64,000 bases of DNA from Lachnospiraceae bacterium (GTDB lineage: Bacteria > Bacillota > Clostridia > Lachnospirales > Lachnospiraceae): the NCBI GenBank assembly GCA_022483465.1, contig JAKVNF010000003.1:248001-312000 (forward strand), written 5' to 3'. The notes beneath the pieces are model-generated. The model ran no database searches and was not told the origin of the DNA. It saw nothing but the letters and a program-made list of their open reading frames with translations. Below, one piece after another: positions 9,272-61,230 of this stretch (position 1 is the stretch's first letter; every line of letters starts with the position of its first letter). The position numbers and the translations under genes were made by a program.

Positions 9272-10126
9272 ATGGCAATGCGCGATGAGGTCCGCAGGGA
9301 GCGGGCCAAGCTCAAGGGAAAAGGGGTGAAGGCCCACCTGGCCTACTTCTGGGATTACTACCGGCTGCCGACCTTCCTGATCGCCATCGGGGCGGCGCTG
9401 GTGATCGGCTTTATCGTGACCCAGGTCACGGCAAAGGACACCGCCTTTGACGCGGTACTGATCAACGCGGACGCCACGGTGGACACCATGACCGCGGTCA
9501 ACGCCGCCGGGCAGACCTTTGCGGACTATGCGGGCATCGACACAAGTAAGTACGACTGGACGATCGACAACTCCCTGTCCCTCTCCCAGGACCGGATGTC
9601 CAGCCAGTACGACTACGCGACGATCATGAAGCTGGCGGCCCAGATGGCAGCCCAGCAGATCGACGTGATGGTTGCCAATCCCTCCAACTTCAGCTACTAC
9701 GCCCTAAACAGCTCCTTTCTGGACCTTCGGGAGGTTGTTTCCGAGGACCAGCTGAAAACCTGGGAGGACGAGGGGCTACTCTGGTACGTGGACGGCAAGG
9801 AGATGGAGACTCTGGGAGAGGAGTCGGATGTCACCACCGAGGCCGCGACGGAGTCGGATACCGAGGGCTCCCTGCAGACCCCGGAGGATACCGAGAAAGC
9901 GGCGCAGCAGGCGGAGGAGGCCGAGTACCTGGAGAACTACACGATGCCGGACCCGGACATCATGGAGGATCCGATCCCGGTGGGCGTTGTGGTGAACAAC
10001 GCGCCCTACATCCAGGACAACGGATTTTACGGCAAGACCACGGCGATCGCGGGTGTTGTGATCAACACCGAGCACCAGAATCTTGCCGCCGCGTTTCTGA
10101 CCTATCTGTTTGGCGAGGGAAAATGA
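9272..10126 (+). CDS. Membrane-anchored extracytoplasmic protein of unknown function
   Basis: I do not recognise the family. The 284-residue protein has a basic cytoplasmic N-terminus, one membrane helix (about 31-52, PTFLIAIGAALVIGFIVTQV) and an outer domain. That domain contains an acidic low-complexity stretch (about 185-220, rich in Glu, Thr and Ser) and ends with a block including VVINTEHQNLAAAFLTYLF. The blocks AAQMAAQQIDVMVANPSNF and SFLDLREVVSEDQL resemble the ligand-binding lobes of extracellular solute-binding proteins, but this is weak. The start at 9272 has AAGGGG upstream. The stop overlaps the next gene (ATGA), so it is co-translated with the serine hydrolase; a cell-envelope role is inferred from context. 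Confidence 0.75.
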   Translation: MAMRDEVRRERAKLKGKGVKAHLAYFWDYYRLPTFLIAIGAALVIGFIVTQVTAKDTAFDAVLINADATVDTMTAVNAAGQTFADYAGIDTSKYDWTIDNSLSLSQDRMSSQYDYATIMKLAAQMAAQQIDVMVANPSNFSYYALNSSFLDLREVVSEDQLKTWEDEGLLWYVDGKEMETLGEESDVTTEAATESDTEGSLQTPEDTEKAAQQAEEAEYLENYTMPDPDIMEDPIPVGVVVNNAPYIQDNGFYGKTTAIAGVVINTEHQNLAAAFLTYLFGEGK

Positions 10127-45730: not shown

Positions 45731-45783
45731 AAAAAAGCGACAGGACGGCAATACAGATCTCTGCATTGCGACGTCTCTGCCGC
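45731..45783 (-). terminator. Leader terminator (attenuator) of asnB
   Basis: On the minus strand, GCGGCAGAGACG opposite CGTCCTGTCGC encloses GCAATGCAGA/TCTGTATTGC, and six T follow. It lies between the asnB promoter and start codon: about 22 nt after the presumed start and about 50 bases before the ATG. It must therefore be read through for asnB to be made. Confidence 0.75.
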
Positions 45784-45811
45784 GTTCGTTCCTTGTTGAT
45801 TTATGTGTGAC

Positions 45812-45840
45812 ATTATGAGCCCGGCCGGGAAGTTTGTCAA
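45812..45840 (-). promoter_or_regulatory. asnB promoter
   Basis: On the minus strand, consensus TTGACA (45835-45840), 17-bp spacer containing the palindrome CCCGGCCGGG, and CATAAT (45812-45817). Confidence 0.8.
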
Positions 45841-46113
45841 GCACCAAAGAGAAAAAGGGGAAGACCTTCCGCAGGACCCCTGCAGGGGATGCCGAACTTA
45901 AGAAAGAAAGGAGTGCGCCCCCCGTGCGGCCTTTTGCAGAGTAATGCGGCGACGTATTTGAAAAGTTCGGAATTTTCCCAAAAAGACGCAGGACACAAAA
46001 GCGTCACAAATTCATGACATAAGAAACACAAATTTTTCATATGATTCACAGGACACAGCAAAAAGGTGTTTTTGTCATTTTCAAATCATATGAGCACAGG
46101 AGGATTCCAACAA
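45841..46113. other. Intergenic region with inverted repeat before the NEW3 gene
   Basis: No gene was seen. It is AT-rich near the plus-strand gene. TCATATGATT (46037-46046) and AATCATATGA (46084-46093) form an inverted repeat ending five bases before the ribosome site AGGAGG. CAGGACACA occurs twice (near 45990 and 46049). No promoter with both hexamers was convincing; TATGAT at 46039 may be a -10. Confidence 0.4.
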
Positions 46114-47325
46114 ATGAACAGGCACTTTGGGTATTCGCTTCGGAGGACCGGCGCTGCCGTCTTGGCAGCAGGTCTCATCGCGGTCACGCCGCTTACCGTC
46201 TTCGCGGCAACCAGTGATTCCACCACGGAGACCGCATCGGTGATCGCCAGTGGGCTCACCATGAGCACCGACTACAACGGCCTCTCTGTCCAGGCGGGTG
46301 ACACGGTCTCCTTCAACCTGAGCTTTACCAACAGCGGGGCCGGCGAGGAGGTCTCCCTCTCCGCATCAGGACTGCCGGACGGGTTTGACGGCTACTTCCA
46401 GGGCGGAAGCCACACCGTGACCAAGGCCTATGTGGCAAACGGCGTCAGCTCCGATGTCGTTACCTATACGGTAACGATCCCCGATGACACCTCCGACGGC
46501 ACCTACAACTTCACGCTGACCGCCGAGGGCGACAACGGCACCGCTTCCCTTCCGATTACCCTGAATGTCTCGGAGATCGCCGTCAGCGCTTCCACATTTA
46601 CCGCTGACTCGGAGGAGCAGGAGGGCACGTCCGGAACGTCCTTCACCTTCTCCTCAACCCTGACCAACAACTCTCTGGAGTCCGGCTCCTATGCCCTTTC
46701 CGCAGATGCACCGACCGGCTGGCAGGTGACCTTCACCTCCAGTGATTCCAAGCAGGTCTCCTCGGTGGATGTGGATGCCCAGGGTTCCGCAACCCTGACC
46801 ATCGGCGTCACCCCGGCAACCGGCGTGGAGGCTGGTGAGTACAACATCCCCGTCTATGCCAAGAACGGTTCCGACTCCGTGGAGCTGGATCTGAAGGTGA
46901 CCATCACCGGTACCTACACCCTGGATCTTGCCACCGAGGACCAGACCCTCTCCTTTGACGCCAAGACCAACAAGCAGACGGCCGTGACGCTGACCCTCAC
47001 CAACTCCGGCAACATCGATCTGAACAACATCAACCTGACTTCCTCCGCACCCACCGACTGGACGGTCTCGTTCTCCCAGGACACCATTGACACCCTGGCT
47101 GCCGGCGCAACCCAGAACGTCACGATGTATGTGACCCCTTCGGATGCCGCCATCAGCGGTGACTACGTCCTGTCCGTGACCGCAAAGAGCGATGAGACCT
47201 CGCAGACCTCTCAGTTCCGTGTGACCGTGCAGACCCAGACCATCTGGGGCATTGTGGGACTGGTCATCATCGCCGGCATCGTGGTTTGCCTGTTCTTTGT
47301 CTTCAGAAAGTTCGGGAGGCGCTGA
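46114..47325 (+). CDS. NEW3-domain secreted membrane-anchored protein
   Basis: The 403-residue protein has a Sec signal peptide (to about Ala32), three Ig-like beta-sandwich units and a C-terminal membrane helix (about 373-395, IVGLVIIAGIVVCLFFVF) with a basic tail. The second and third units read LTLTNSGNIDLNNINL and ...APTDWTVSFS, the pattern of NEW3 (alpha-galactosidase-associated) domains. It is very rich in Thr/Ser and Asp. It is four bases upstream of an ABC ATPase, and NEW3 proteins often accompany ABC-2 exporters, where they may be a receptor or periplasm-side partner. The start is fixed by AGGAGG and the signal peptide. Confidence 0.88.
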   Translation: MNRHFGYSLRRTGAAVLAAGLIAVTPLTVFAATSDSTTETASVIASGLTMSTDYNGLSVQAGDTVSFNLSFTNSGAGEEVSLSASGLPDGFDGYFQGGSHTVTKAYVANGVSSDVVTYTVTIPDDTSDGTYNFTLTAEGDNGTASLPITLNVSEIAVSASTFTADSEEQEGTSGTSFTFSSTLTNNSLESGSYALSADAPTGWQVTFTSSDSKQVSSVDVDAQGSATLTIGVTPATGVEAGEYNIPVYAKNGSDSVELDLKVTITGTYTLDLATEDQTLSFDAKTNKQTAVTLTLTNSGNIDLNNINLTSSAPTDWTVSFSQDTIDTLAAGATQNVTMYVTPSDAAISGDYVLSVTAKSDETSQTSQFRVTVQTQTIWGIVGLVIIAGIVVCLFFVFRKFGRR

Positions 47326-47328
47326 TCT

Positions 47329-48417
47329 ATGGCTGACGAGACAAAAGACCCCATCATCCAGACCGTGAACCTGTGCAAGGATTACGGCGAGGTGCATGCG
47401 GTCGATCACCTGAACCTCCAGGTGCACCCCGGCGAGGTCTTCGGCCTGCTCGGCCCCAACGGCGCCGGCAAGACGACCACCACGCTGATGCTCCTGGGGC
47501 TCACCGAGCCGACCTCGGGACATGCCTTCATCAACGGGCTCAACTGCACGCGGCATTCCCTGGAGGTCAAAAACCTGGTCGGGTATCTGCCCGACAACGT
47601 GGGCTTCTATCCGGCCATGACGGGCCGGGACAACCTGATCTTCTCCGGCATGATGAACGGCCTCTCTGAGGCGGATGCCGGAAAGCGGGCGGCCAGGGAG
47701 CTCGAGCGCGTGGGCATGACCTACGCGGCAGACCGGAACGCCGGCACCTACTCCCGAGGCATGCGGCAGCGCCTCGGCATCGCAGACGTCCTGATGAAGG
47801 ATCCCAAGGTCATCATCATGGATGAGCCCACCGCCGGCATCGACCCGGAGGGCGTCCGGGCGATGACCGTTCTCATCCGGAACCTGGCACTGGAGGAGCA
47901 CATCACGCTCCTCATCTCCTCCCACGACCTGTATCAGGTCCAGAGGATTTCCGACCGGGTCGGCATCTTCGTCCACGGCAAGATGATTGCCTGCGGCAAG
48001 GTGCAGGATCTGGGCCGGCAGCTGCAGAACGAGGGCCTGTACATGTTTGACTTCACCGCCGAGAAGAACGGCGAGAAGGAGTGGTCCCCGGAGTTCCAGC
48101 AGAAGATCCGGGAGATCCCGGACGTCACGATCGTCGGCCGCAAGGTCGACGGCTCCATCCACGTCGAGGCAAAGCGCGACATCCTGCTCGAGCTGCAGAA
48201 GCTCATGGTAGAGCAGGGCATCGCCGTCCGTGAGATGCACCAGACCGGCGGCGATCTGGATGAGATCTACCGCAAGTACTTTGAAAAGGCAGAGGAAGAA
48301 GAGGAAGGAGGGAAATCCAATGGCAGAAGCGGGCAAAACGCAGGCGGCGAAGAAGCAGACCGCCCCGTCGGGCTTAAAGCAAAGCTGGCAGCAGTTCGTA
48401 GCAGAAGAAAGAAGTGA
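47329..48417 (+). CDS. ABC-2 type exporter, ATP-binding protein
   Basis: The 362-residue ATPase has Walker A GPNGAGKTT (42-50), signature YSRGMRQRLGIAD, Walker B VIIMDEPTAGIDPEG and switch His in LISSHDL. These match the CcmA/NatA-type exporter ATPases. After the nucleotide-binding domain (to about 230) it has an extra C-terminal domain (240-320), and then an acidic, disordered tail (from about 322, EEEEEGGKSNGRSG). The sequence of the tail overlaps the start of the permease gene. Probable role: drive export of a lipid, peptide or surface component with the next gene. Confidence 0.9.
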   Translation: MADETKDPIIQTVNLCKDYGEVHAVDHLNLQVHPGEVFGLLGPNGAGKTTTTLMLLGLTEPTSGHAFINGLNCTRHSLEVKNLVGYLPDNVGFYPAMTGRDNLIFSGMMNGLSEADAGKRAARELERVGMTYAADRNAGTYSRGMRQRLGIADVLMKDPKVIIMDEPTAGIDPEGVRAMTVLIRNLALEEHITLLISSHDLYQVQRISDRVGIFVHGKMIACGKVQDLGRQLQNEGLYMFDFTAEKNGEKEWSPEFQQKIREIPDVTIVGRKVDGSIHVEAKRDILLELQKLMVEQGIAVREMHQTGGDLDEIYRKYFEKAEEEEEGGKSNGRSGQNAGGEEADRPVGLKAKLAAVRSRRKK

Positions 48418-49396
48418 AGCGGCGAAGCGCAACCGGCATGGCATGCACGTGCTCTACCGCAAGGAGCTCTCCGACCACATCAACTCCACCAGGTGCCAGA
48501 TCCTGTACTTCATGTTGGCCCTCGTGTGCTTCATCGCCCTCTACGGGGCGGAGCAGACCCTGGCCCAGAGTGCCTCGCAGACCTCGGACGGCACGACCAC
48601 GGTCTCGAAGTTCATGTTCCTGCTCCTGTTCACGACCTCGGGCAGCAACATCTACTCGATCTCCACGTTCCTGGGCTTTCTGGGACCGGTCTTCGGCATT
48701 ATGCTCGGCTTTGATGCCATCAACGAGGAGATCGCCCAGGGCACGCTGAACCGCCTGGCGGCACAGCCCATCTGGCGCGACACGATCATCATCTCGAAGT
48801 TCCTGGCGGGGGCCACGTTCATCTTCCTGACCGTGTTCTCCATCGGGGGCCTCGTCACCGGCATCGGCATGATCGGCACCGGCCTTGTCCCCTCGGGGGA
48901 GGAGGTCGCGCGGATTCTGTTCTACCTGCTGATGGCCTCGATCTACATCTGCACCTGGATGGCGCTTGCCGAGCTCTTCTCGGTGACCTGCCGCCACGCA
49001 GCCACCTCGGCGCTCTCCTCGATCGCTATCTGGCTGTTCCTGACGATGTTCATGAGCCTTCTGGCCAGCGGCATCGCCGGCATGGTCTATCCCACCGGCC
49101 AGTCCGTGCAGGGCCAGATGAACACCCTGGCCAACTACAACCTGCAGGTGGGTCTCAACCGGATCTCGCCCTACTACCTCTTCTCGGAGGTGACGACGAT
49201 CCTGATGAACCCGAACGTGCGCTCCACGAACCTGGTGTCGATCCTGCAGTCCTCGGACAGCGCGATCGCCTCCTACCTGACGCTGGGGCAGAGTCTGCTG
49301 CAGATCATTCCCCACATCGTGGTGATGTTTGCGGAGATGATCGCCTTCTTCGCAGCGGCCTACATCAGCTTCATGCGCAAGGAGATCCGCGCGTAA
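48320..49396 (+). CDS. ABC-2 type exporter, permease
   Basis: The 358-residue membrane protein has a basic cytoplasmic N-terminus (about 1-60) and six helices, for example ILYFMLALVCFIALYG, GFLGPVFGIMLGFDAI and IVVMFAEMIAFFAAAYI. The pattern RDTIIISKFLAGATFIF is typical of ABC-2 permeases (NosY-like). The start at 48320 has an excellent GGAGGG upstream and overlaps the ATPase gene by 98 bases in another frame. A later Met (48440) is a possible alternative start that would leave the helices intact. It ends in a strong terminator. Confidence 0.88.
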   Translation: MAEAGKTQAAKKQTAPSGLKQSWQQFVAEERSEAAKRNRHGMHVLYRKELSDHINSTRCQILYFMLALVCFIALYGAEQTLAQSASQTSDGTTTVSKFMFLLLFTTSGSNIYSISTFLGFLGPVFGIMLGFDAINEEIAQGTLNRLAAQPIWRDTIIISKFLAGATFIFLTVFSIGGLVTGIGMIGTGLVPSGEEVARILFYLLMASIYICTWMALAELFSVTCRHAATSALSSIAIWLFLTMFMSLLASGIAGMVYPTGQSVQGQMNTLANYNLQVGLNRISPYYLFSEVTTILMNPNVRSTNLVSILQSSDSAIASYLTLGQSLLQIIPHIVVMFAEMIAFFAAAYISFMRKEIRA

Positions 49397-49418
49397 GCCG
49401 AATCGATTTGAAACACGG

Positions 49419-49450
49419 CAGCCTGCTCCGCAAGGGGACAGGCTGTTTTT
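49419..49450 (+). terminator. Intrinsic terminator of the ABC-2 exporter unit
   Basis: CAGCCTG (49419-49425) and CAGGCTG (49439-49445), then TTTTT. The rest of the gap to 49691 holds no gene. Confidence 0.75.
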
Positions 49451-49623
49451 GTGCTCTCACGAGATGAAATATGAAACATCTGTGAAAAGCATTACATGAG
49501 GAAACGGAAAAAAACAGATTCTTATCCCGGGGGAGTGGTGAGACGGCTGACGATACTGTGTGCGGTGTCGGAACTGTACGAAAATAAAGTCAGACAAATT
49601 TCCGAAGGCAAGAGGACTTTACA

Positions 49624-49652
49624 ACGCTTTTCAAGCGTGCTAGCATCATAAT
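49624..49652 (+). promoter_or_regulatory. Dyad and -10-like box before the 49692 gene
   Basis: ACGCTT-3-AAGCGT (49624-49638) is followed eight bases later by CATAAT (49647-49652), 40 bases before the ATG at 49692. The dyad sits where a repressor would block a promoter; no clear -35 was found. Confidence 0.35.
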
Positions 49653-49691
49653 GAAAGTAAAAAAATATAAAAGGAAGGAGGGCGCGGCACG

Positions 49692-50702
49692 ATGGAGAAG
49701 GATATGCTGCAGGGCATCCGGAGAGACTCGATCGAAGGACATGTCCCGCTGAAGAACATCGGATTGGATCTGGTAGTACTGTTTTATGAGGAAATGACCA
49801 AACGGGGAAAGCACTCGGAAAAACCCGCTGGGCCTCTGATTCAGGAGGCAAAGGCGGAGGCGGCGGAGTGGTTCCCGGAGATGAGCGAGATTGTGAAATA
49901 TGCGGCGGATGCGCTGACCCAGAGCGCAGGCCGGGGGGAGGAAAGCCCCCGGGAGGATGCCTTCGCACAGTCCGTCTCCAAGCTCGCCATCTCCCTGCAG
50001 GCGGCCAGCACGCTCTTTGTCTCCAACAGCCTCGGGAGCAACGACATGATCCTCGAGGACATCGGCGCGAGGTACCTGGAGTGCCGGGGAACGCTCCCTG
50101 ACGAGGGGTCCAGGGCCCAAAAGCGCGAGGAGAAGGAGTTTGCCAGCCACCAGGCCAAAGAGGGGAGCGAGGACCGGTGGGACCGCAATGCCAGCATGGT
50201 GGAGCGGCTCACCAAGGAGTTTTTCCGCTACCAGATCGACGACGAGAGCCGCGGCAAGGCGATCCAGGCGCTCATGGATTTTGACCACGACAACACCCAG
50301 GACAAGGAGCTCTGGAACACGGTCCTTGGCTACCTCGACGGGATGGGCCTCTCCGATGAGGACACGAGCCCGATCCTGCAGGAGGAGCGAAGGGATCTCA
50401 TCCAGACCCTGCGCCACGTGCAGCCGGGGGTCGTGCGGTATTTCCTCTACCGCTGCAACCAGCTGGCGGAGACGGAGTTTGAGGGGGTGCGGGATCGGTT
50501 CCTGTGCCAGAAGCAATACGCCTACGACGAGGACACGAAGAAGTTCTACGATGCGCTGCAGGTTTTGGAGACCGCGTACATTGAGGAGACCTTCCGGAGC
50601 GACTCGGGGCAGGAGATGCGCCGGCGCGAGGTCACCCAGAGCATGGATGCGCACCTGTTATTCTTCAGACTCCTTGGCAAGACCGACTCGGCGACGGCGT
50701 GA
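49692..50702 (+). CDS. Unrecognised helical cytoplasmic protein upstream of glnN
   Basis: I do not recognise this 336-residue protein. It is soluble and mostly helical, with no signal peptide, membrane helix, Cys-rich motif or ATP loop. Regions of note are SVSKLAISLQAASTLFVSNS (about 97-116), a charged linker (about 140-165), and MVERLTKEFFRYQIDDE. The start has GGAAGGAGGG upstream. It stands alone between an exporter terminator and the glnN promoter, so a link to nitrogen metabolism is possible but not shown. Confidence 0.75.
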   Translation: MEKDMLQGIRRDSIEGHVPLKNIGLDLVVLFYEEMTKRGKHSEKPAGPLIQEAKAEAAEWFPEMSEIVKYAADALTQSAGRGEESPREDAFAQSVSKLAISLQAASTLFVSNSLGSNDMILEDIGARYLECRGTLPDEGSRAQKREEKEFASHQAKEGSEDRWDRNASMVERLTKEFFRYQIDDESRGKAIQALMDFDHDNTQDKELWNTVLGYLDGMGLSDEDTSPILQEERRDLIQTLRHVQPGVVRYFLYRCNQLAETEFEGVRDRFLCQKQYAYDEDTKKFYDALQVLETAYIEETFRSDSGQEMRRREVTQSMDAHLLFFRLLGKTDSATA

Positions 50703-50763
50703 GCCTTCGTCAGATTGCCGGTTTTGCATCGGACGGCCTCTGTATCATTGTATGCAATTTTGA

Positions 50764-50791
50764 TTGACAAACCCCTTTCTGCGGATATAAT
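50764..50791 (+). promoter_or_regulatory. glnN promoter
   Basis: Consensus TTGACA (50764-50769), 16-bp spacer and consensus TATAAT (50786-50791). This is the strongest promoter in the window by sequence, followed at once by a terminator. Confidence 0.85.
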
Positions 50792-50806
50792 ACAGTTCTA
50801 TAAAGC

Positions 50807-50857
50807 AAAGGCGCTTTGAGAGACGGAAGAAGTCTCTCAAGGCGCTTTTTGGTTTTT
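50807..50857 (+). terminator. Leader terminator (attenuator) of glnN
   Basis: AAAGGCGCTTTGAGAGAC (50807-50824) pairs with GTCTCTCAAGGCGCTTT (50832-50848) with one bulge and one mismatch, around the loop GGAAGAA. It is followed by TTTTTGGTTTTTC. It begins about 10 nt after the presumed transcription start and ends before the glnN ribosome site. Confidence 0.8.
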
Positions 50858-50881
50858 CAGAGAACAGGAGGATATCGATCA

Positions 50882-52987
50882 ATGGATACGGTAAAGATCC
50901 CGGAGATTTACGGCAGCCTTGTCTTCAACGACAAGGTGATGAAAGAGCGGCTCCCCAAGGATGTCTACAGGGCCGTCCACAAGGCGATCGCCAGCGGCTC
51001 CTCTCTGCAGCTTGACGTGGCCAACACCGTGGCAGCTGCGATGAAGGAGTGGGCAATCGAGAAGGGTGCCACCCACTACACGCACTGGTTCCAGCCGATG
51101 ACCGGTCTGACTGCGGAGAAGCACGACTCCTTCATCAGCCCTCAGGCAAATGGAACCGTCATCATGGAGTTCTCCGGCAAGGAGCTGATCAAGGGCGAGC
51201 CCGACGCCTCCTCCTTCCCGTCCGGCGGCCTGCGTGCCACTTTTGAGGCAAGAGGATACACTGCGTGGGATCCCTCTTCACCGGCCTTCATCAAGGACGG
51301 CACCCTCTACATCCCGACGGCTTTCTGCAGCTACGGCGGCGAGGCCCTCGACAAGAAGACCCCGCTCCTTCGCTCCATGGCAGCCCTCTCCAGGGAGGCC
51401 GTGAAGGTGCTGCACGTTCTGGGCAACACCGAGGTCACCCATGTGGACACCACCGTGGGTTCCGAGCAGGAGTACTTCCTGATCGACAAGGATATGTACT
51501 TAAAGCGCAAGGACCTGCTGATGTGCGGCAGAACCCTGATCGGCGCCCCTGCTCCCAAGGGACAGGAGATGGAGGATCACTACTTCGGTGTCCTCAAGCC
51601 GAAGGTCTCTGAGTACATGCATGACCTGGATCAGGAGCTGTGGAAGCTCGGCGTCCCGGCCAAGACCAAGCACAACGAGGTCGCTCCTTCCCAGCACGAG
51701 CTGGCTCCGGTCTTCGAGACCGCAAACGTCGCCGTCGACCACAACCAGCTGACCATGGAGGTCATGAAGAAGGTTGCCGACAAGCACGGCTATGCGTGCC
51801 TGCTGCATGAGAAGCCGTTCGACGGTGTCAACGGCTCCGGCAAGCACAACAACTGGTCCATCGTCACCGATACCGGTGTGAACCTCCTGGATCCCGGCAA
51901 GACCCCTGCCGAGAACACCCAGTTCCTGGTCTTCCTGATGGCAGTCATCTCCGCTGTGGATGATTATCAGGATCTGATGCGTGTCTCGGTCGCCACGGCT
52001 GGCAATGATCACCGCCTTGGCGCAAACGAGGCGCCGCCGGCCATCATCTCCATCTTCGTGGGCGATGAGCTCGCAGGTGTCTTAAAGGCCATCGATGAGG
52101 GCAAGGACTTCGTCGGCACCGGCAAGATCAAGATGGATCTGGGCGCTCCGGTTCTTCCGAACATCACCAAGGACACCACGGACCGCAACCGGACCTCGCC
52201 GTTTGCCTTCACTGGCAACAAGTTTGAGTTCCGTATGCCCGGCTCCTCGCTGAGCGTTGCAGACCCCAACATCGTCCTGAACACCGCCGTCGCAGAGTCT
52301 CTCTCCAAGATCTACGACAAGCTCAAGGATGTCGCGCCCGATGACATGGCAGCCGCAGTTCAGAAGCTCGTGAAGGAGCTCCTGGACGCCCACAAGAGAA
52401 TCCTCTTCAACGGCAACGGCTACACCGACGCCTGGGTCGAGGAGGCAGCAAAGCGCGGCCTCTACAACTTAAAGTCCCTGCCTGAGGCAATGCCCAGACT
52501 CATCGCGGACAAGAACGTCGAGCTCTTCACCAAGCACGGCATCTTCACGAAGGAGGAGCTGGATTCCCGCTACGAGATCTTCCTCGAGAACTACGTGAAG
52601 ACGATCCACATCGAGTCCCTGACGATGCAGGAGATGGTGCGCAAGGACTTCACCTGCGGCATCGTGTCCTACATGAAGGACATCACCAACGAGACCCTCA
52701 AGAAGAAGCAGCTCATGCCGAGCCTGGACTGCTCCTACGAGGAGAAGATCATCGGCACCCTGGATGCCACCGAGGCGAAGATCTGCACCTCTGTCGAGAA
52801 GCTCGACGAGGACACCAGGCACGCCGAGACCATCGAGGACGAGCTCGCGTGCGCAACCTACTACTACAAGACGATTCTTGCCGACATGGCAGAGCTTCGC
52901 GCCAGCGTCGACAAGGCAGAGGCCATCATCCCGGACAGCTACCTTCCTTATCCGACCTACGGCCAGATGCTGTTCTCCCTTCGCTGA
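50882..52987 (+). CDS. glnN: Glutamine synthetase type III
   Basis: The 701-residue enzyme assimilates ammonia into glutamine. It is the large GSIII form (about 700 residues, versus 440-470 for GSI): GSTTTHYTHWF-like FQPMTG region ([20 protein letters not shown]), [15 protein letters not shown], and the catalytic block [12 protein letters not shown] with [20 protein letters not shown] and [17 protein letters not shown]. The GSIII-specific C-terminus is complete. ATG 50882 has AACAGGAGG upstream. It sits between a leader attenuator and gltBD, and its product feeds the next two genes. Confidence 0.95.
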
Positions 52988-53082
52988 GCGGGTTCGGGGG
53001 TGCAATCCCCGTCGTTCTACCGCAATGTCATCCTGACAGTTCGCCTTGCACCTTCGGTGTGAGACTGCAATTGTATACCGCA

Positions 53083-53150
53083 AAATCCGGCAATGAGGCT
53101 GGCAGGTTTCATGGGTCCTGCCATGCCTGCCAGCATCAGGCCGGATTTTT
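53083..53150 (+). terminator. Long terminator between glnN and gltB
   Basis: AAATCCGGC (53083-53091) pairs with GCCGGATTT (53140-53148) and encloses GCTGGCAGG/CCTGCCAGC (53098-53106 and 53126-53134), followed by T. It is about 95 bases after glnN and 57 before gltB. It may end glnN or be a gltB leader attenuator; no strong gltB promoter was found, which leaves the choice open. Confidence 0.75.
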
Positions 53151-53206
53151 GCGTATCTGCGCATATTTTCAGAAACTTTCGGATTGCCACGCAAAGGAAT
53201 TGAAAA

Positions 53207-56200
53207 ATGGAGAAAACGAAAGAAAAATTCTATACCAAGGAGTTCTATGAGAGCCTGCAGAAGGAGCACGACGCCTGCGGCATCGGCACCATCGTGAACA
53301 TCGACGGCCACAAGGACTACCGGGTGCTGGACGATGCCCTCTCGATCGTGGAAAAGCTCGAGCACCGCGCCGGAAAGGACGCGACCGGGAAGGTGGGCGA
53401 CGGTGTCGGCATCCTCACCCAGGTCTCCCACACGTTCTTTTCGAAGGCAGCAAAAGAGGCGGGCATCACCCTGGGCGGTGAGCGCGACTACGGTGTCGGC
53501 ATGTTCTTCCTGCCCCAGGACACCTTAAAGCGCACCTTCGCGATGCGCATGCTGGAGGTCATCACCCAGAAGGAGGGCCTCAACTTCCTCGGCTGGCGCG
53601 CCGTCCCGGTGCACCCGGAGATCTTGGGCGCCCCCGCGAGGGACTGCATGCCCTACATCAGCCAGTGCTTCATCGAGCGCCCCAAGGACTGTCCCAAGGG
53701 CATCGATTTTGACCGGCGTCTGTATGTGGTCCGCCGGGAGTTTGAGCAGTCCTCCGAGGACACCTACATCTGCTCCCTCTCTTCAAGGACCATCGTCTAC
53801 AAGGGCATGTTCCTCGTGATGCAGCTTCGCAAGTTCTACGATGACCTGCAGGATCCGGATTTCCAGACCGCCATCGCCATCGTCCACTCGCGCTTTTCGA
53901 CGAACACGACGCCCTCCTGGAACCGCGCCCATCCCTACCGGATGATCGCCCACAACGGCGAGATCAACACGATCCGCGGCAACATCGACCGTATGCTCGC
54001 CCGTGAGGAGACCATGTTCTCGCCGATCATGGAATCCGACATCGACAAGATCTTCCCGGTGGTCAACACCGCGGGCTCCGACTCCGCGATGCTCGACAAC
54101 ACCCTGGAGTTTTTGTACATGAACGGCATGGATCTGCCGCTGGCCATGATGGTGACGATCCCCGAGCCCTGGAAGCACAACGGCTTCATGAGCGAGGACC
54201 GGAAGGACTTCTACCATTACTATGCGACCATGATGGAGCCCTGGGACGGCCCGGCGGCCATCTTGTTCTCCGACGGCGATCTCGTCGGCGCGACCCTGGA
54301 CCGGAACGGCCTTCGCCCGTCCCGCTACTACATCACCGATGACAACCGCCTGATCCTCGCCTCCGAGGTGGGCGTTCTGGACATTGCCCCGGAGCACGTC
54401 CTGACCAAGGGACGCCTCGAGCCCGGCAAGATCCTGCTCGTCGACACCGTGCAGAAGCGGATCATCTCCGACGCGGAGTGCAAGAACTACTACAGCCACC
54501 GCCAGCCCTACGGCGAGTGGCTCGACTCCCACCTGCTGCACCTGGAGAACCTGGCGATCCCCAACAAGAAGATCCCGACCCACAGCCAGGAGGACCGGGA
54601 CAAGCTCTACAAGGTCTTCGGCTACACGAATGAGGACGTGAACGATGAGATCCTGCCCATGGCCTTAAACGGCGTGGAGCCCACGGCCTCCATGGGCCAC
54701 GACGTGCCGCTGGCCGTCCTCTCGAAGCAGCACCAGCTCCTCTTCAACTACTTCAAGCAGCTGTTTGCGCAGGTCACGAATCCGCCCATCGACAGCCTGC
54801 GGGAGAAGATCGTCACCGACACCACGGTCTACATCGGCTCCGATGGTGACCTCTTAAACGAGAAGGGCAACAACTGCACGGTCCTCGAGGTGAACAACCC
54901 GATCCTGACCGGCGTGGACATCATGAAGATCAAGTCCCTGAACCAGCCGGGCTTCCACGCAAGAACCCTCTCGCTCCTCTACTACAAGAACACGAGCCTT
55001 GCCAAGGCCCTGGAGCAGCTGAACATCTCCGTGGACCGGGCAGAGACCGAGGGCATCAACATCATCATCCTCTCCGACCGCGGCGTGGATGAGAACCACG
55101 TGCCGATTCCGTCCCTCCTTGCCGTCTCCTCCGTGGAGCAGCACCTGGTGCGCACGAAAAAGCGCACGAAGGTATCCCTGATCCTCGAGTCCGGCGAGCC
55201 CAGAGACGTCCACCAGGTGGCAACCCTCCTTGGCTTTGGTGCCCGGGCCGTGAATCCCTACCTTGCCCACGAGTGCATCGCCGAGCTCATCGACATGGGG
55301 AACCTGGACAAGGACTATCACACCGCCATTGAGGACTACAACAAGGCCCTGCTCCAGGGCGTTGTGAAGATCGCCGCCAAGATGGGTATTTCGACGATCC
55401 AGTCCTATCAGTCCGCCCGCATCTTCGAGGCGGTGGGCCTCTCCCAGGAGATCATCGACCGGTACTTCACCGGCACCGTCTCCCGTGTCGGCGGCATCGG
55501 CATCCCCGAGATCGAGGAGGGAATCACCTTCCGCCACGACCACGCCTTTGACCCGCTGGGCCTTGGCGTTGACACCACCCTGGACTCCGTTGGCTTCCAC
55601 AACCTGCGCTCCGGCAAGGACAAGGAGGATCACCTCTACAGCCCGGAGACCATCATCACGCTCCAGCAGGCGGTGCGCACCGGCTCCTACGAGAAGTTCA
55701 AGGAGTACACGAAGCTCGTCGACGACCCGGCAAGGCCCCACACCCTGCGGAGCCTGATGGACTTTGCGCCGAAGAACGCGCCGATTCCGCTCGAAGAGGT
55801 GGAGCCCGTCGAGAACATCCTGCACCGCTTCAAGACCGGCGCCATGTCCTTTGGCTCGATCTCCCAGGAGGCCCACGAGACCCTGGCCCTGGCGATGAAC
55901 AGGATCGGCGGCAAGTCCAACACCGGTGAGGGCGGCGAGGATCCCGCCCGCTACGGCACGGACCGCAACTCCGCGATCAAGCAGGTGGCCTCCGGGCGCT
56001 TTGGTGTCACCAGCGCCTACTTAAACAGCGCCGTCGAGATCCAGATCAAGATGGCCCAGGGTGCCAAGCCCGGCGAGGGCGGTCACCTTCCGGGAAAGAA
56101 GGTCTACCCTTGGGTTGCAAAGATCCGCTACAGCACCCCCGGCGTGGCCCTGATCTCCCCGCCGCCGCACCACGACATCTACTCGATCGAGGATCTGGCA

Positions 56201-57757
56201 CAGCTGATCTACGACTTAAAGAACGCAAACCGGGGTGCCAGGATCTCCGTGAAGCTCGTCTCCGAGTCGGGCGTTGGCACGATTGCCTGCGGCGTTGCCA
56301 AGGCAGGTGCCCAGGTCATCCTGATCTCGGGTTATGACGGCGGCACCGGCGCGGCGCCCACCTCCAGCATCCACAACGCGGGCCTTCCCTGGGAGCTCGG
56401 CATCGCTGAGGCCCATCAGAACCTGATCGCAAACGGCCTTCGGGGCCGCGTCATCCTGGAGACCGACGGAAAGCTCATGTCCGGCCGGGACGTTGCCATC
56501 GCGGCGCTCCTTGGCGCCGAGGAGTACGGCTTTGCCACCGCGCCCCTCATCTGCATGGGCTGCATGATGATGCGCGTCTGCTCCAAGGACACCTGCCCGG
56601 TGGGCATCGCGACCCAGAACCGGTTGCTGCGGGACCGCTTTGCCGGAAAGCCGGAGTATGTCATCAACTTCATGACCTTCATCGCCCAGGAGCTGCGCGA
56701 GATCATGGCAAAGATGGGCTTTAGCACGCTGGATGAGATGATCGGACGGACCGACTGCCTCGAGGTCAAGAAGAACCCGATCACCAAGCGCGCGAGCAAG
56801 GTCGACCTCTCGAGAGTCCTGGATCCCCGGTTTGCCCATGCGGCCGAGTCCCACTTTGAGAAGGAGAAGGTCTACGACTTCCACCTCGAGAAGACCCTCG
56901 ACATGTCGGTGCTGCTGCCCGCCTTCGCGCCCCAGTTTGACAAGAAGCCGGAGGATGTCAAGAAGAAGACGGTGGAGCTCAAAGTGAGCTCCACGGACCG
57001 GGCCTTTGGCACGATCCTCGGCTCCGACATCACGCGGCACTTCGGCGAGAAGCTCCCGGAGGACACCTTTGAGGTCATCGCCCACGGCGGCGGCGGGCAG
57101 AGCTTTGGCGCCTTCGCGCCCAAGGGCCTGACCCTTCGCCTCTACGGCGACGCCAACGACGGCTTCGGCAAGGGCCTCTCCGGCGGCAAGCTCATCGTGG
57201 CCCCGGAGAAGGGCTCGAAGTTCGTCGCCTCGAAGAACATCATCATCGGCAATGTCGCCCTCTACGGCGCGACCTCCGGCCGTGCCTATGTCTGCGGCAT
57301 CGCCGGCGAGCGCTTCTGCGTGCGCAACTCCGGTGCCATCGCGGTGGCAGAGGGCTGCGGCGACCACGGCCTCGAGTACATGACGGGCGGCCGCGCGGTG
57401 ATCTTAGGGCCCACCGGCAAGAACTTTGCGGCCGGCATGTCCGGCGGCATCGCCTACGTGCTGGATGAGGACCACACCCTCTACCGCAGAATGAACAAGG
57501 ACATGGTCTCGATGCAGGAGCTCTCGGAGAAGTACGACATCCAGGAGCTCAAGTACATCCTGCAGGACTATGAGAAGGAGACGGGCTCGGAGCTGGCAAA
57601 GAAGATCCTGGCCAACTTCGCGGACTACATCCCCTCCTTCAAGAAGATCCTGCCCAATGACTATCAAAAGATGCTGATCGCGATCAGCAAGTATGAGGAG
57701 CAGGGCATTTCCCACGACAATGCCGTGCTGGAAGCATTCGAGGAGGTGACGGCGTAA
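53207..57757 (+). CDS. gltB: Glutamate synthase, large (alpha) subunit
   Basis: The 1516-residue enzyme makes two glutamates from glutamine and 2-oxoglutarate. The mature N-terminal nucleophile Cys is in HDACGIGTIV (Cys24, so a short propeptide). The central and FMN domains have the 3Fe-4S cysteines in CMMMRVCSKDTCPVG and PPHHDIYSIEDLAQLIYDLK. The C-terminal beta-helix has the repeated Gly-rich segments of the family (LYGDANDGFGKGLSGGKL). Length is typical. gltD follows with a 1-base overlap. Confidence 0.96.
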   Translation: MEKTKEKFYTKEFYESLQKEHDACGIGTIVNIDGHKDYRVLDDALSIVEKLEHRAGKDATGKVGDGVGILTQVSHTFFSKAAKEAGITLGGERDYGVGMFFLPQDTLKRTFAMRMLEVITQKEGLNFLGWRAVPVHPEILGAPARDCMPYISQCFIERPKDCPKGIDFDRRLYVVRREFEQSSEDTYICSLSSRTIVYKGMFLVMQLRKFYDDLQDPDFQTAIAIVHSRFSTNTTPSWNRAHPYRMIAHNGEINTIRGNIDRMLAREETMFSPIMESDIDKIFPVVNTAGSDSAMLDNTLEFLYMNGMDLPLAMMVTIPEPWKHNGFMSEDRKDFYHYYATMMEPWDGPAAILFSDGDLVGATLDRNGLRPSRYYITDDNRLILASEVGVLDIAPEHVLTKGRLEPGKILLVDTVQKRIISDAECKNYYSHRQPYGEWLDSHLLHLENLAIPNKKIPTHSQEDRDKLYKVFGYTNEDVNDEILPMALNGVEPTASMGHDVPLAVLSKQHQLLFNYFKQLFAQVTNPPIDSLREKIVTDTTVYIGSDGDLLNEKGNNCTVLEVNNPILTGVDIMKIKSLNQPGFHARTLSLLYYKNTSLAKALEQLNISVDRAETEGINIIILSDRGVDENHVPIPSLLAVSSVEQHLVRTKKRTKVSLILESGEPRDVHQVATLLGFGARAVNPYLAHECIAELIDMGNLDKDYHTAIEDYNKALLQGVVKIAAKMGISTIQSYQSARIFEAVGLSQEIIDRYFTGTVSRVGGIGIPEIEEGITFRHDHAFDPLGLGVDTTLDSVGFHNLRSGKDKEDHLYSPETIITLQQAVRTGSYEKFKEYTKLVDDPARPHTLRSLMDFAPKNAPIPLEEVEPVENILHRFKTGAMSFGSISQEAHETLALAMNRIGGKSNTGEGGEDPARYGTDRNSAIKQVASGRFGVTSAYLNSAVEIQIKMAQGAKPGEGGHLPGKKVYPWVAKIRYSTPGVALISPPPHHDIYSIEDLAQLIYDLKNANRGARISVKLVSESGVGTIACGVAKAGAQVILISGYDGGTGAAPTSSIHNAGLPWELGIAEAHQNLIANGLRGRVILETDGKLMSGRDVAIAALLGAEEYGFATAPLICMGCMMMRVCSKDTCPVGIATQNRLLRDRFAGKPEYVINFMTFIAQELREIMAKMGFSTLDEMIGRTDCLEVKKNPITKRASKVDLSRVLDPRFAHAAESHFEKEKVYDFHLEKTLDMSVLLPAFAPQFDKKPEDVKKKTVELKVSSTDRAFGTILGSDITRHFGEKLPEDTFEVIAHGGGGQSFGAFAPKGLTLRLYGDANDGFGKGLSGGKLIVAPEKGSKFVASKNIIIGNVALYGATSGRAYVCGIAGERFCVRNSGAIAVAEGCGDHGLEYMTGGRAVILGPTGKNFAAGMSGGIAYVLDEDHTLYRRMNKDMVSMQELSEKYDIQELKYILQDYEKETGSELAKKILANFADYIPSFKKILPNDYQKMLIAISKYEEQGISHDNAVLEAFEEVTA

Positions 57758-59259
57758 TGGGAAAGACTACCGGATTCCTGGATTACCAGAGAAAAGCAAA
57801 CGGGGACATTCCGCCGAAGGAGCGCATCCAGAACTTTTCCGAGTTCCACACCTACCTGGATGAGGAGGACAGAAGTAAGCAGGCGGGCCGCTGCATGAAC
57901 TGCGGCGTGCCGCTGTGCCAGTCCGCGATGAAGCTCTCCGGCATGGTGACCGGGTGCCCGCTCCACAACCTGATCCCCGAGTGGAATGACGAGGTCTGGC
58001 AGGGGCATGTGCGCTACGCGTTCACAAGGCTCCAGAAGACCTCCAACTTCCCGGAGTTCACGGGAAGGGTTTGTCCCGCGCTCTGCGAGAAGGCCTGCAT
58101 CAACGGCGAGTACGGCGAGCCGGTGACGATCCACGACAACGAGCTCTACATCATCGAGACCGCCTGGGCAAAGGGCACGATTCAGCCGAGGATCCCCAGA
58201 ATCCGCTCCGGCAAGCGGGTCGCGGTGGTGGGCTCCGGCCCCGCAGGTCTTGCCTGCGCGGATGAGCTCAATCACCGTGGGCACCTTGTCACCGTGCTCG
58301 AGCGGGAGGACCGGATCGGCGGCCTTCTCATGTACGGCATCCCGAACATGAAGCTCGACAAGTCGGTGATTGCGCGCAGAAGAAAGCTCATGGAGGAAGA
58401 GGGCGTCGTCTTTGAGACCGGCGTCAACGTGGGCGTCACCGTGACCGCGGAGGAGCTCTTAAAGAAGTACGACGCGGTGGTCCTTGCCTGCGGCGCAAAG
58501 CAGCCCCGGGCCCTTGCCGGCGCGGATCCCGAGAAGACCCCCGGCGTCTACTACGCGGTGGACTTCTTGAAGTCGACGACCAAGGCCCTCCTTGCCACGG
58601 GCTCCGTCAGCGCCGCGGACTTCCGCAAGGCCACCGGCTACATCAGCGCGAAGGACAAGAACGTCGTGGTGGTCGGCGGCGGTGACACCGGCAACGACTG
58701 CATCGGCACCTGCATCCGCCACGGCTGCAAGAGCATCACGGCTCTCGAGATGATGCCGGAGCCGCCCCTCACCCGCACGGTCTCCAACCCCTGGCCGGAG
58801 TGGCCCAAGGTCAAGAAGACCGACTACGGCCATGAGGAGGCCATCGCGGTCTTCGGGAAGGACCCCAGAGTCTACGAGACCACGGTCAAGGAGATCCACA
58901 CCAACAAGAAGGGGGAGCTTCGCGAGATCGTCACCGTGAAGGTGAAGTTTGAGAACCGCAAGATCGTCGAGATCCCCGGCACGGAGCAGACCTTGAAGTG
59001 CGAGCTCCTTCTCATCGCCGCCGGCTTTACCGGCTGCGAGAAGTACACGGCCGAGGCCTTCGGCACCAAGCTCACCCAGCGGGGCACCGTGGAGACCGCG
59101 GCGGAGGACGCCTTTGCGACTTCCGTCAACAAGGTCTTCACCGCGGGCGACATGCACCGGGGCCAGTCCCTGGTCGTCTGGGCGATCACCGAGGGAAGAC
59201 GCTGCGCAAGAGACGTGGATCTCTTCCTGATGGGCTACTCGAACCTTAGGGAGTCCTGA
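57757..59259 (+). CDS. gltD: Glutamate synthase, small (beta) subunit
   Basis: The 500-residue subunit passes electrons from NAD(P)H to GltB. N-terminal cysteines for two [4Fe-4S] clusters are visible (CMNCGVPLCQS, then CPLHNL and RVCPALCEKACI), followed by the FAD loop VVGSGPAGLACADEL and the NAD(P) loop VVVGGGDTGNDC. Full length. Start overlaps the gltB stop (TAATG), giving coupled translation. Confidence 0.95.
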   Translation: MGKTTGFLDYQRKANGDIPPKERIQNFSEFHTYLDEEDRSKQAGRCMNCGVPLCQSAMKLSGMVTGCPLHNLIPEWNDEVWQGHVRYAFTRLQKTSNFPEFTGRVCPALCEKACINGEYGEPVTIHDNELYIIETAWAKGTIQPRIPRIRSGKRVAVVGSGPAGLACADELNHRGHLVTVLEREDRIGGLLMYGIPNMKLDKSVIARRRKLMEEEGVVFETGVNVGVTVTAEELLKKYDAVVLACGAKQPRALAGADPEKTPGVYYAVDFLKSTTKALLATGSVSAADFRKATGYISAKDKNVVVVGGGDTGNDCIGTCIRHGCKSITALEMMPEPPLTRTVSNPWPEWPKVKKTDYGHEEAIAVFGKDPRVYETTVKEIHTNKKGELREIVTVKVKFENRKIVEIPGTEQTLKCELLLIAAGFTGCEKYTAEAFGTKLTQRGTVETAAEDAFATSVNKVFTAGDMHRGQSLVVWAITEGRRCARDVDLFLMGYSNLRES

Positions 59260-59321
59260 GCGATTTGGCAAAATCCCGAAAATGGCGCGAAAGCCCGGCG
59301 GAATTTTGACAGTTCTCCGGG

Positions 59322-59350
59322 TTGCCAGAAAAAGGATACTTGTATACAAT
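59322..59350 (+). promoter_or_regulatory. amtB promoter
   Basis: TTGCCA (59322-59327), 17-bp spacer, TACAAT (59345-59350). The leader to the ATG is about 125 nt and contains two hairpins. Confidence 0.65.
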
Positions 59351-59362
59351 ATTCCCATAGGC

Positions 59363-59388
59363 GCCGGCGGGGCAAGAACCCCACCGGC
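59363..59388 (+). promoter_or_regulatory. Upstream leader hairpin of amtB with six-base loop
   Basis: GCCGG-C-GGGG (59363-59372) pairs with CCCC-A-CCGGC (59379-59388) around the six-base loop CAAGAA. It precedes the leader terminator by 20 bases, an arrangement like that of ANTAR-controlled leaders, but the loop lacks the conserved first A. Confidence 0.55.
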
Positions 59389-59408
59389 AAGACGAACAGG
59401 ACAGCAAG

Positions 59409-59446
59409 GGAGCTGTGCGGAACATGGTCCGCACAGCTCCTTTTTT
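59409..59446 (+). terminator. Leader terminator (attenuator) of amtB
   Basis: GGAGCTGTGCGGA (59409-59421) pairs perfectly with TCCGCACAGCTCC (59428-59440) around the loop ACATGG, followed by six T. It lies between the amtB promoter and the start codon (36 bases before ATG). Confidence 0.85.
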
Positions 59447-59481: not shown

Positions 59482-61230
59482 ATGGAAATCAGTGTAACCA
59501 CAGTCATATGGGTGCTGGTCTGTACCGCACTCGTCTACTTCATGCAGGCGGGCTTTGCCCTCTGCGAGGCGGGCCTCACAAGGGCCAAGAACACCGGCAA
59601 CATCCTGATGAAGAACATGATGGACTTCTGCATCGGAACCCCGTGCTTCTGGTTCATCGGCTTCTCGATCATGTTCCACGGGGGACTGGGCGGCTTCATC
59701 GGCAGCCCGGACTTCTTCATCCGCGGCGCCTACACCGCCAAGAACAGCGTCGTCCCCCAGACGATGCCCCTCTGGTGCTACGTGATCTTCCAGACCGTGT
59801 TCTGCGCCACCGCCGCGACCATCGTCTCCGGATCCATGGCAGAGCGCACGAACTTCAAGGCCTACTGCGTCTACAGCGCCGTGATCTCCCTGATCGTCTA
59901 TCCGATCTGCGGCCACTGGAGCTGGGGCGGCGGCTGGCTCTCCACCCTGGGCTTCCATGACTTCGCAGGTTCCGCGCAGGTCCACAACGTGGGCGGCCTC
60001 ATCGCCTGCCTTGGCGCAGCGCTCCTTGGACCCCGCATCGGCAAGTATGACAAGAACGGCAACCCCCGCGCCATCCTCGGCCACAACATGACCGCCGTCG
60101 CCCTCGGTGTCTTCATTCTCTGGTTCTGCTGGTTCGGATTCAACGGCGGTTCCACCGTCGCCATGAGCACCGCAGACGATGCGGCCTCCGCATCCCTGGT
60201 CTTCATGAACACGAACCTCGCCGCTGCCATCGCCACCGTGGTCACCATGATTTTCACCTGGTGCCGGTACGGCAAGCCTGACGTCTCCATGACCTTCAAC
60301 GCCTCTCTGGCGGGCCTGGTGGCCATCACCGCTGGCTGCGACTGCGTCTCCCCGGTGGGCGCTGCCATCATCGGCGTCGTCTCCGGTTTCCTGGTTGTCT
60401 TCTCCGTCGAGTTCTTTGACCGGGTCGCCAAGATCGACGATCCCGTCGGTGCCGTCTCCGTCCACTTCGTGAACGGCGTCTGGGGCACCATCGCGGTGGG
60501 CCTCTTCTCCACCGGCACAGACGGCGTCGGCAAGGGCCTCTTCTACGGCGGCGGCGCAGGCCAGCTGGGCGTGCAGCTTATCGGCATCCTCGCCATCGAT
60601 GTCTACGTCCTGGTTGTCATGTTCATCGTCTTCAAGATCATCGACAAGACCATCGGCCTTCGCGTTCCCGCAGAGGTCGAGATCGAGGGCCTGGACAAGT
60701 ACGAGCACGGCCTTGCCAGCGCCTACAGCGGATTTGCGATCTCTGATCCCACCTACCTGGAGATGGACGTGAACGAGAACACCGACCTCGGCGAGGAGAA
60801 CTACGACAAGGCCTCCGAGGCGCAGAAGAGCGCCGCCGTCAAGGTTCAGACCGCACCGACCGGCGTCTACGACACCGGCATGCACAAGGTCTCCATCATC
60901 TGCCGCCTGTCCAAGTTTGACGAGCTCAAGACCGCGCTGAACAAGCTGGGCGTCACCGGCATGACCATGACGCAGGTCATGGGCTGCGGCATCCAGAAGG
61001 GCTCCAACGAGCGCTACCGTGGCGCCGTGGTCGACAGCACGCTTCTTCCGAAGGTGAAGGTCGAGGTCATCGTCTCCAAGATCCCGGTGGATTCCGTGAT
61101 CGAGGCGGCGAAGAAGGCCCTCTACACCGGCCACATCGGAGACGGCAAGATCTTCGTCTACAACGTCACCAGGGTCGTCAAGATCCGCACCGGCGAGGAG
61201 GACTTTGCAGCCCTTCAGGACGTCGAGTAA
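59482..61230 (+). CDS. amtB: Ammonium transporter fused to a P-II signalling domain
   Basis: Residues 1-about 410 form the Amt channel: GFALCEAGLTRAKNTGNI at the N-terminus, the conserved DFAGSAQVHNVGG (first pore His region), NGGSTVAM, and VHFVNGVWGTIAVGLF (second pore His). A linker is followed by a complete P-II (GlnK-type) domain from about 467: MHKVSIICRLSKFDELKTAL, then GCGIQKGSNERYRGAVVD, whose T-loop Tyr512 is the site of uridylylation in classical P-II, and KVKVEVIVSKIPVDSVIEAA. Free P-II normally plugs AmtB; here the plug would be tethered. ATG 59482 has GAGGAGG upstream. Confidence 0.93.
   Translation: MEISVTTVIWVLVCTALVYFMQAGFALCEAGLTRAKNTGNILMKNMMDFCIGTPCFWFIGFSIMFHGGLGGFIGSPDFFIRGAYTAKNSVVPQTMPLWCYVIFQTVFCATAATIVSGSMAERTNFKAYCVYSAVISLIVYPICGHWSWGGGWLSTLGFHDFAGSAQVHNVGGLIACLGAALLGPRIGKYDKNGNPRAILGHNMTAVALGVFILWFCWFGFNGGSTVAMSTADDAASASLVFMNTNLAAAIATVVTMIFTWCRYGKPDVSMTFNASLAGLVAITAGCDCVSPVGAAIIGVVSGFLVVFSVEFFDRVAKIDDPVGAVSVHFVNGVWGTIAVGLFSTGTDGVGKGLFYGGGAGQLGVQLIGILAIDVYVLVVMFIVFKIIDKTIGLRVPAEVEIEGLDKYEHGLASAYSGFAISDPTYLEMDVNENTDLGEENYDKASEAQKSAAVKVQTAPTGVYDTGMHKVSIICRLSKFDELKTALNKLGVTGMTMTQVMGCGIQKGSNERYRGAVVDSTLLPKVKVEVIVSKIPVDSVIEAAKKALYTGHIGDGKIFVYNVTRVVKIRTGEEDFAALQDVE

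Follow-up and report, generated by a model that had tools for sequence, protein, structure and literature searches.

The nitrogen-assimilation genes asnB, glnN, gltB and amtB lie within a stretch of 64,000 nucleotides from a Lachnospiraceae bacterium (assembly GCA_022483465.1, contig JAKVNF010000003.1, positions 248,001 to 312,000; hereafter the window) and are each preceded by a leader in which a terminator overlaps a small hairpin. These leaders are most likely the targets of NitR, an ANTAR antiterminator encoded beside glnA, and would form a nitrogen regulon that makes use of one hairpin per leader. A stem of 5 bp with a C-G closing pair and a six-base loop with A at position 1 and G at position 4 (A1/G4 hexaloop) occupies the 5' end of the terminator region in 4/4 window leaders, and judged by its sequence this hairpin is the recognition hairpin of ANTAR antiterminators. 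A hexaloop with A1/G4 that overlaps a terminator is also described for published ANTAR targets (PMC3369931), and a C:G closing pair with an A1/G4 loop was selected when NasR was subjected to SELEX (systematic evolution of ligands by exponential enrichment; PMC7496416). The original prediction for this DNA had proposed a common nitrogen-responsive antiterminator, either an RNA-binding protein or a small RNA. An RNA-binding ANTAR protein is the best reading and the families ANTAR and NitR were rightly named, the small RNA being less favoured.

Architecture of the window leaders

Window genes were named on the basis of Pfam and NCBIfam matches, and the folding energy of each leader hairpin was compared with 200 shuffles (z value). 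On the minus strand, asnB (44097..45680; glutamine-hydrolysing asparagine synthase, NCBIfam NF006949, 591 bits) is preceded by a promoter TTGACA-17-CATAAT at 45812..45840 (11/12 consensus matches in the promoter scan) and a terminator at 45737..45783, whose bulged stem is followed by TTTTTT (-30.2 kcal/mol, z -5.7). On the plus strand, glnN (50882..52987; type III glutamine synthetase, GSIII_N 5e-82) has a promoter TTGACA-16-TATAAT at 50764..50791 (12/12) and a terminator at 50807..50849 (-29.4 kcal/mol, z -6.9). The gene amtB (59482..61230, plus strand), which by its domain matches encodes an ammonium transporter whose C-terminus is fused to a P-II domain (residues 467-572), has a promoter TTGCCA-17-TACAAT at 59322..59350 (10/12) and a terminator at 59406..59443 (-29.5 kcal/mol, z -7.4). 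The predicted order of promoter, terminator and ribosome site was confirmed for these three genes, and none of the 200 shuffles folds as well as the asnB, glnN or amtB leader hairpin. The leader terminator suspected ahead of gltB (53207..57757, plus strand; glutamate synthase large subunit, Pfam and NCBIfam matches) is present as well, at 53086..53145 with TTTTT behind it (-40.3 kcal/mol, z -5.9); no clear gltB promoter was listed in the promoter scan. The small subunit is encoded by the adjoining gltD (57757..59259, plus strand; TIGR01317). Seven promoter-like sites were detected in 16.5 kb versus 2.8 (standard deviation 1.8) in shuffles, and the same scan yielded 22 terminator-like sites where 11.7 were expected. 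Rfam gave no window match at gathering score, be it a riboswitch, a T-box or another leader; at a lax threshold all scores were far under the cut-off, the best one (22.8 bits versus 39) belonging to one relative's leader.

The hexaloop hairpins were read from the leaders and recovered by a loop scan in all four, those of glnN and amtB also by a strict scan. Their sequences are GCGGC[AGAGAC]GTCGC for asnB (45768..45783, minus strand), which resembles the second hairpin (P2) of ANTAR targets and lies within the terminator 5' arm, AAAGC[AAAGGC]GCTTT for glnN (50802..50817, plus strand) at the predicted RNA 5' end, CCGGC[AATGAG]GCTGG for gltB (53087..53102, plus strand) within the terminator stem, and ACAGC[AAGGGA]GCTGT for amtB (59401..59416, plus strand). 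The earlier statement that the leader hairpins share no sequence beyond AAGAA was mistaken, since all four have in common a C[A..G..]G hexaloop on a stem of 5 bp. The AAGAA motif itself, which occurs in two terminator loops, was dropped as a candidate; terminator loops vary freely among relatives. In all four leaders the coordinates of hairpin and terminator overlap, and by sequence the two structures are mutually exclusive. From about the promoter to this hairpin none of the window leaders has another A1/G4 hexaloop with a stem of at least 3 bp. The strict combination of a hexaloop, a stem of at least 4 bp and a simple terminator was found twice in the window, at glnN and amtB, whereas 40 dinucleotide shuffles yielded 0.05 on average; bulges in the terminator stems of asnB and gltB keep these two out of the strict scan. 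We regard glnN and amtB as firm members of the regulon, and asnB and gltB as likely members that are atypical in this genome.

Conservation and covariation in relatives

For the comparison with relatives, the leaders of glnN, amtB, gltB, asnB and pyrG were taken from the best 80 of 591 confirmed GlnN loci. Query matches starting after residue 25 were excluded when leaders were chosen, and the counts leave out the own-genome copies (L001-L003) apart from the pyrG leader of L002. An A1/G4 hexaloop with a stem of at least 4 bp was located at the 5' edge of 106/138 leader terminators (score at least 20) and of 16/136 control terminators from the same loci (score at least 24), a number of the 16 resembling genuine elements of other genes. 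Divided by leader, the hexaloop was present in 55/64 (glnN), 27/37 (amtB), 12/15 (pyrG), 7/13 (asnB) and 5/9 (gltB) cases. Reducing these 106 to one per leader gave 103 elements. The closing pair is C-G in every one of them, even though it was not part of the selection, and the loop consensus is mostly AANGRN. In 96/103 elements, unlike in the window leaders of asnB and gltB, the 5' arm of the hexaloop hairpin is located fully outside the terminator stem.

The covariance analysis in relatives that had been suggested as a check was carried out and did not refute the proposal. The two arms of the stem change together (AAGC/GCTT, TGAC/GTCA, CAGC/GCTG, AGAC/GTCT, ACGC/GCGT and others), and covariation amounted to 0.806 versus 0.259 in shuffled and at most 0.167 in slid pairings, as calculated from 73 distinct hairpins of a set selected for pairing. 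Owing to this selection, sites anchored on the loop and a model blind to the stem are the fairer tests. With C[A..G..]G as the only anchor, a stem of at least 4 bp was formed at 157/498 sites in leaders, 31/251 antisense sites and 519/7,408 sites over the entire loci; six other pairs of loop letters were accompanied by stems in 6-11% of cases in leaders. A family search using a model which does not pair this stem recovered a stem of at least 4 bp in 27/29 loci, four of which (L131, L133, L148, L153) repeat leaders used for model building; in L138, one of the two misses, the hairpin is visible by eye.

Distribution of the element and of ANTAR genes

A terminator-structured model of the element, R1, was compared with the presence of ANTAR genes, which 131/150 genomes of the family possess. 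At E<=1e-4, R1 matched 89/131 family genomes with an ANTAR gene versus 1/19 genomes lacking one (G137, 81% complete; p 1.5e-7, ignoring kinship). In 116 genomes of the order the respective numbers were 34/68 versus 1/48 (G249, 88% complete), and at E<=1e-3 they were 44 versus 4 genomes. The association persists when the own family is left out of the order (24/57 versus 1/48 at E<=1e-4; p 3.8e-7, again ignoring kinship).

R1 alone is neither specific in this GC-rich genome nor fully sensitive. Up to E<=10 it gave 19 matches in 17 own-genome loci, five of which contain an A1/G4 hexaloop, namely glnN, amtB, L119, L130 and L125; the hexaloop of L125 has a T-G closing pair and its gene was not assigned. 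The remaining 12 loci look like ordinary terminators. A pattern of promoter plus loop was found at 6 own-genome sites versus 4 for a reversed control pattern, and promoter, hairpin and terminator occur together at three of the six: glnN, L119/L162 and L160.

The putative regulator NitR

The genome encodes exactly one ANTAR protein. Its gene (C3:317347-317937) is located about 5.3 kb beyond the window end, in accordance with the original statement that the window contains no such regulator, and starts 12 bases after glnA in the gene order pyrG, glnA, nitR. The protein comprises 196 aa with an ANTAR domain (PF03861) at residues 136-188 (5.7e-14), and its Response_reg score of 25.5 is under the cut-off of 30.2. 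By sequence the nearest solved chains are 1s8n (Rv1626; 7.5e-13), 1qo0 (AmiR; 8.7e-6) and 6wsh, annotated 'Response regulator', which we take to be EutV. Of 30 nitR loci in relatives 25 were scored, and in 22/25 glnA is directly upstream of nitR, an adjacency presumably typical of NitR. Three loci with cut or wrong open reading frames (L086, L106, L108) were left out of the alignment reading, so that 22 remained readable. At the position that we take, from the receiver motif, to be the phospho-acceptor, the alignment read by eye has N in the own NitR and an aspartate in 0/22 readable relatives (G in 18). Because the receiver lacks the phospho-aspartate and its domain match is below the cut-off, NitR is considered a pseudo-receiver ANTAR protein like AmiR. 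Offset from the EutV contacts, NitR residues 162-179 retain the positions reading G4, i.e., E, an aromatic residue (H) and M, and the Asn/Arg positions that contact the stem in EutV would correspond to D, S and S; the stem contacts of NitR may therefore differ from those of EutV.

The domain make-up and the glnA neighbour fit, at the level of sequence, the NitR of Clostridium. According to a review, this protein induces the genes of the glutamine synthetase/glutamate synthase pathway (GS/GOGAT) on nitrogen limitation (PMC6316151), and an ANTAR gene of C. thermocellum has been discussed in the context of ammonia assimilation (PMC4676874).

One hairpin or two

The known targets of EutV and NasR combine two hairpins, whereas a canonical first hairpin (P1), i.e., an upstream A1/G4 hexaloop, was found in 0/4 window leaders. 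The glnN leader has no space for it, the asnB leader offers about 22 bases in which no A1/G4 hairpin occurs, and the upstream hairpin of amtB (59363..59388, plus strand; detected by folding and loop scan) has the loop CAAGAA with C at position 1 and G at position 4. In the pyrG leader beyond the window, an upstream hexaloop likewise contains G4 and lacks A1.

The same was observed among relatives. A promoter (at least 9/12 matches, within 75 bases) was assigned to 72/103 elements, and in 58/72 the distance from the end of the -10 box to the loop start is 13-16 bases. With a similar criterion, a nearby upstream promoter was recorded for 70/101 elements and for 23/135 control terminators. Transcription usually begins some 7 bases downstream of the -10 box, which would place the beginning of the stem at RNA base 1-4, so that a first hairpin could not be accommodated. 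In loci from other genomes this spacing recurred in 20/23 promoter-bearing members of the family set (29 loci) and in 11/16 of the order set (19 loci). Upstream A1/G4 hexaloops with a stem of at least 3 bp precede 11/103 elements, inside the range of 2-25 for other letter pairs; they precede 4/29 family and 4/19 order loci, two sets evaluated without the letter control.

It seems likely that single-hairpin ANTAR targets are widespread across the order, one 5'-proximal A1/G4 hexaloop replacing the two tandem hairpins so far regarded as essential, and that a pseudo-receiver NitR runs the whole nitrogen regulon. This regulon would comprise ammonium uptake, GS/GOGAT, the amidotransferases of cytidine triphosphate, asparagine and purine synthesis, and the import of peptides. 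From the structural point of view a one-loop system is plausible, as the authors of the EutV crystal study argue that a single dimer is unable to hold the two hexaloops of an RNA simultaneously (PMC8934654). ANTAR antitermination would then need just one loop per RNA, and a natural one-hairpin system would separate protein recruitment from terminator blocking, which bears on the conflict between structure and genetics of EutV. No description of a one-hairpin ANTAR target or of a NitR target RNA in Lachnospiraceae was found among the best-ranked results of a search in the open-licence literature.

Proposed mechanism and alternative explanations

The hexaloop hairpin is weak, with a median of -3.9 kcal/mol in the 103 elements and about -4 to -6 kcal/mol in the window leaders, as compared to the strong terminator with a median of -22.8 and about -28 to -40 kcal/mol, respectively. 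Something must consequently hold the hairpin for read-through, and we infer that this is NitR. In the absence of active NitR the nascent leader would fold into the terminator and transcription would stop ahead of the gene. The hexaloop hairpin can form first as the RNA emerges, within the first few RNA bases in most of the elements to which a promoter could be assigned. If nitrogen, probably in the form of glutamine, is short, NitR would bind this single hairpin as it leaves the RNA polymerase, reading A1/G4 and the C-G closing pair, and the bound hairpin would occupy the terminator 5' arm. Read-through into glnN, gltBD, amtB, asnB and pyrG-glnA-nitR would follow, which in the latter case amounts to autoregulation. 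The signal may reach the pseudo-receiver through contact with GlnA or P-II, a guess from the gene order and the P-II domain fused to AmtB. This domain might itself sense nitrogen, and it is encoded near the putative targets of NitR. Together, this yields a mechanism that can be tested and a list of candidate targets for the control of nitrogen metabolism in Lachnospiraceae-like bacteria and in neighbouring families, groups often encountered in gut and rumen.

Several observations weigh against a NitR-controlled regulon of this kind. The hairpin is missing at the applied threshold in 32/138 leader terminators, and the glnN leader of L035 (about 9889-9949) has the loop AAGAGC, in which A1 is kept and G4 is lost, position 4 being A. 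In the window, the loops of asnB (AGAGAC) and gltB (AATGAG) deviate from the consensus of the family and the 5' arms of these hairpins are inside the terminator stem, about 22 free bases precede the asnB hairpin, and the stem of the pyrG leader has only 3 bp. Within the genus the gltB and pyrG elements are patchy (5/14 and 3/15 leaders including the own ones, one gltB candidate being doubtful). With respect to R1, 42/131 ANTAR-positive family genomes had no match at E<=1e-4, and up to E 10 the asnB, gltB and pyrG leaders of the own genome were not reported; at E<=0.1 there were matches in 120/131 ANTAR-positive genomes but also in 8/19 ANTAR-negative ones, which is attributed to R1 also matching ordinary terminators. 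Concerning the number of hairpins, the G4-only hexaloop upstream of amtB could be a decayed first hairpin, deletion of the first hairpin reportedly abolished induction by EutV (PMC3369931), and with only the second hairpin present NasR bound weakly (about 12 uM), full affinity requiring both hairpins (PMC7496416).

An alternative would be canonical two-hairpin targets on which NitR acts exactly as EutV does, the first hairpin being degenerate or situated upstream of the assigned promoter. The protein family fits such an arrangement, as do the upstream hexaloop of amtB with its G4 and a 12-base linker and the G4-only hexaloop of pyrG; we nevertheless consider it unlikely, given that the predicted 5' ends leave no room in 58 of the 72 promoter-bearing elements and that upstream A1/G4 hexaloops are no more frequent than those with other letter pairs. 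That a different RNA-binding factor or a small RNA uses the leaders, NitR controlling something else, is quite improbable. Several stem-contact positions of EutV, as deduced by offset, are indeed not kept in NitR, but an A1/G4 loop that is closed by C-G and overlaps a terminator is the signature of ANTAR targets, the presence of the element follows that of ANTAR genes, and Rfam offered no other leader family at gathering score in the window. Hardly credible is the assumption that the leaders are ordinary constitutive terminators that tune expression, with the hexaloop as a by-product of the terminator sequence. The excess of terminator-like sites, the many own-genome model matches to plain terminators and the position of the asnB and gltB hexaloop arms inside the terminator stem could be cited in its favour; yet the stem covaries although its 5' arm is outside the terminator stem in nearly all elements, and most control terminators have no hexaloop.

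Comparison with known ANTAR systems

Antitermination by NitR is known in Clostridium, and the unusual feature of the system proposed here is the apparent one-hairpin target. The original expectation of a variant or new mechanism holds only narrowly, i.e., for one hairpin instead of two, since NitR/ANTAR antitermination is itself known in kind. NitR of Clostridium saccharobutylicum (Stutz et al. 2007, cited in PMC6316151) is likewise an ANTAR protein tied to GS/GOGAT, for which the review mentioned above describes antitermination when nitrogen is limiting. Unlike in that account, the leaders of the NitR-type system proposed here also cover amtB, asnB, pyrG and probably peptide/amino-acid uptake. 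The eut leaders read by the ANTAR protein EutV in Enterococcus faecalis share the A1/G4 hexaloop overlapping an intrinsic terminator, but there a phosphorylated receiver addresses two tandem hairpins that 5-12 linker bases separate, whereas one hairpin and a receiver without phospho-aspartate are found here (PMC3369931, PMC8934654). For NasR and the nasF leader of Klebsiella oxytoca the C:G closing pair, the A1/G4 loops and antitermination are likewise described, with nitrate sensed via a NIT domain (PMC7496416). AmiR of Pseudomonas aeruginosa (chain 1qo0), with 196 aa, also joins a pseudo-receiver to the ANTAR domain and is controlled by AmiC (PMC8934654), while the neighbour of NitR is glnA; no AmiC-like partner was looked for.

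Extent of the proposed regulon

In the own genome, further elements precede genes outside the window. They were located before the gene of an ABC transporter ATPase whose C-terminal domain is of the oligopeptide type (L119, C1:1496810), before a Peripla_BP_6 binding protein (L160, C1:359281), in weaker form before an SBP_bac_5 binding protein (L130) and, with the 3-bp stem, before pyrG-glnA-nitR (L002, 6390-6448). Relatives also carry the element before glnA, and in L142, L143, L150 and L156 elements were seen by eye before genes resembling purF and a P-II gene. Taken from the gene content, this suggests glutamine-using enzymes as a theme of the regulon.

The same-genus reading included 16 asnB, 15 gltB (one of them from another family) and 15 pyrG loci. 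Candidates were present in 9/16 asnB leaders, the own one included, and additionally by eye in L168 and L180; the asnB hairpin in these genomes is the same or a base-paired variant. In the asnB leader of L168 the hairpin is kept letter for letter, and the terminator has no clear T-run.

Before amtB, two tandem hexaloop-terminator units with one hairpin each were noticed by eye in L006, L009 and L022, an arrangement that would make the switch sharper or split it into two steps. In another family of the order, hexaloop elements were likewise recognised by eye before possible molybdenum hydroxylase genes (L242, L251).

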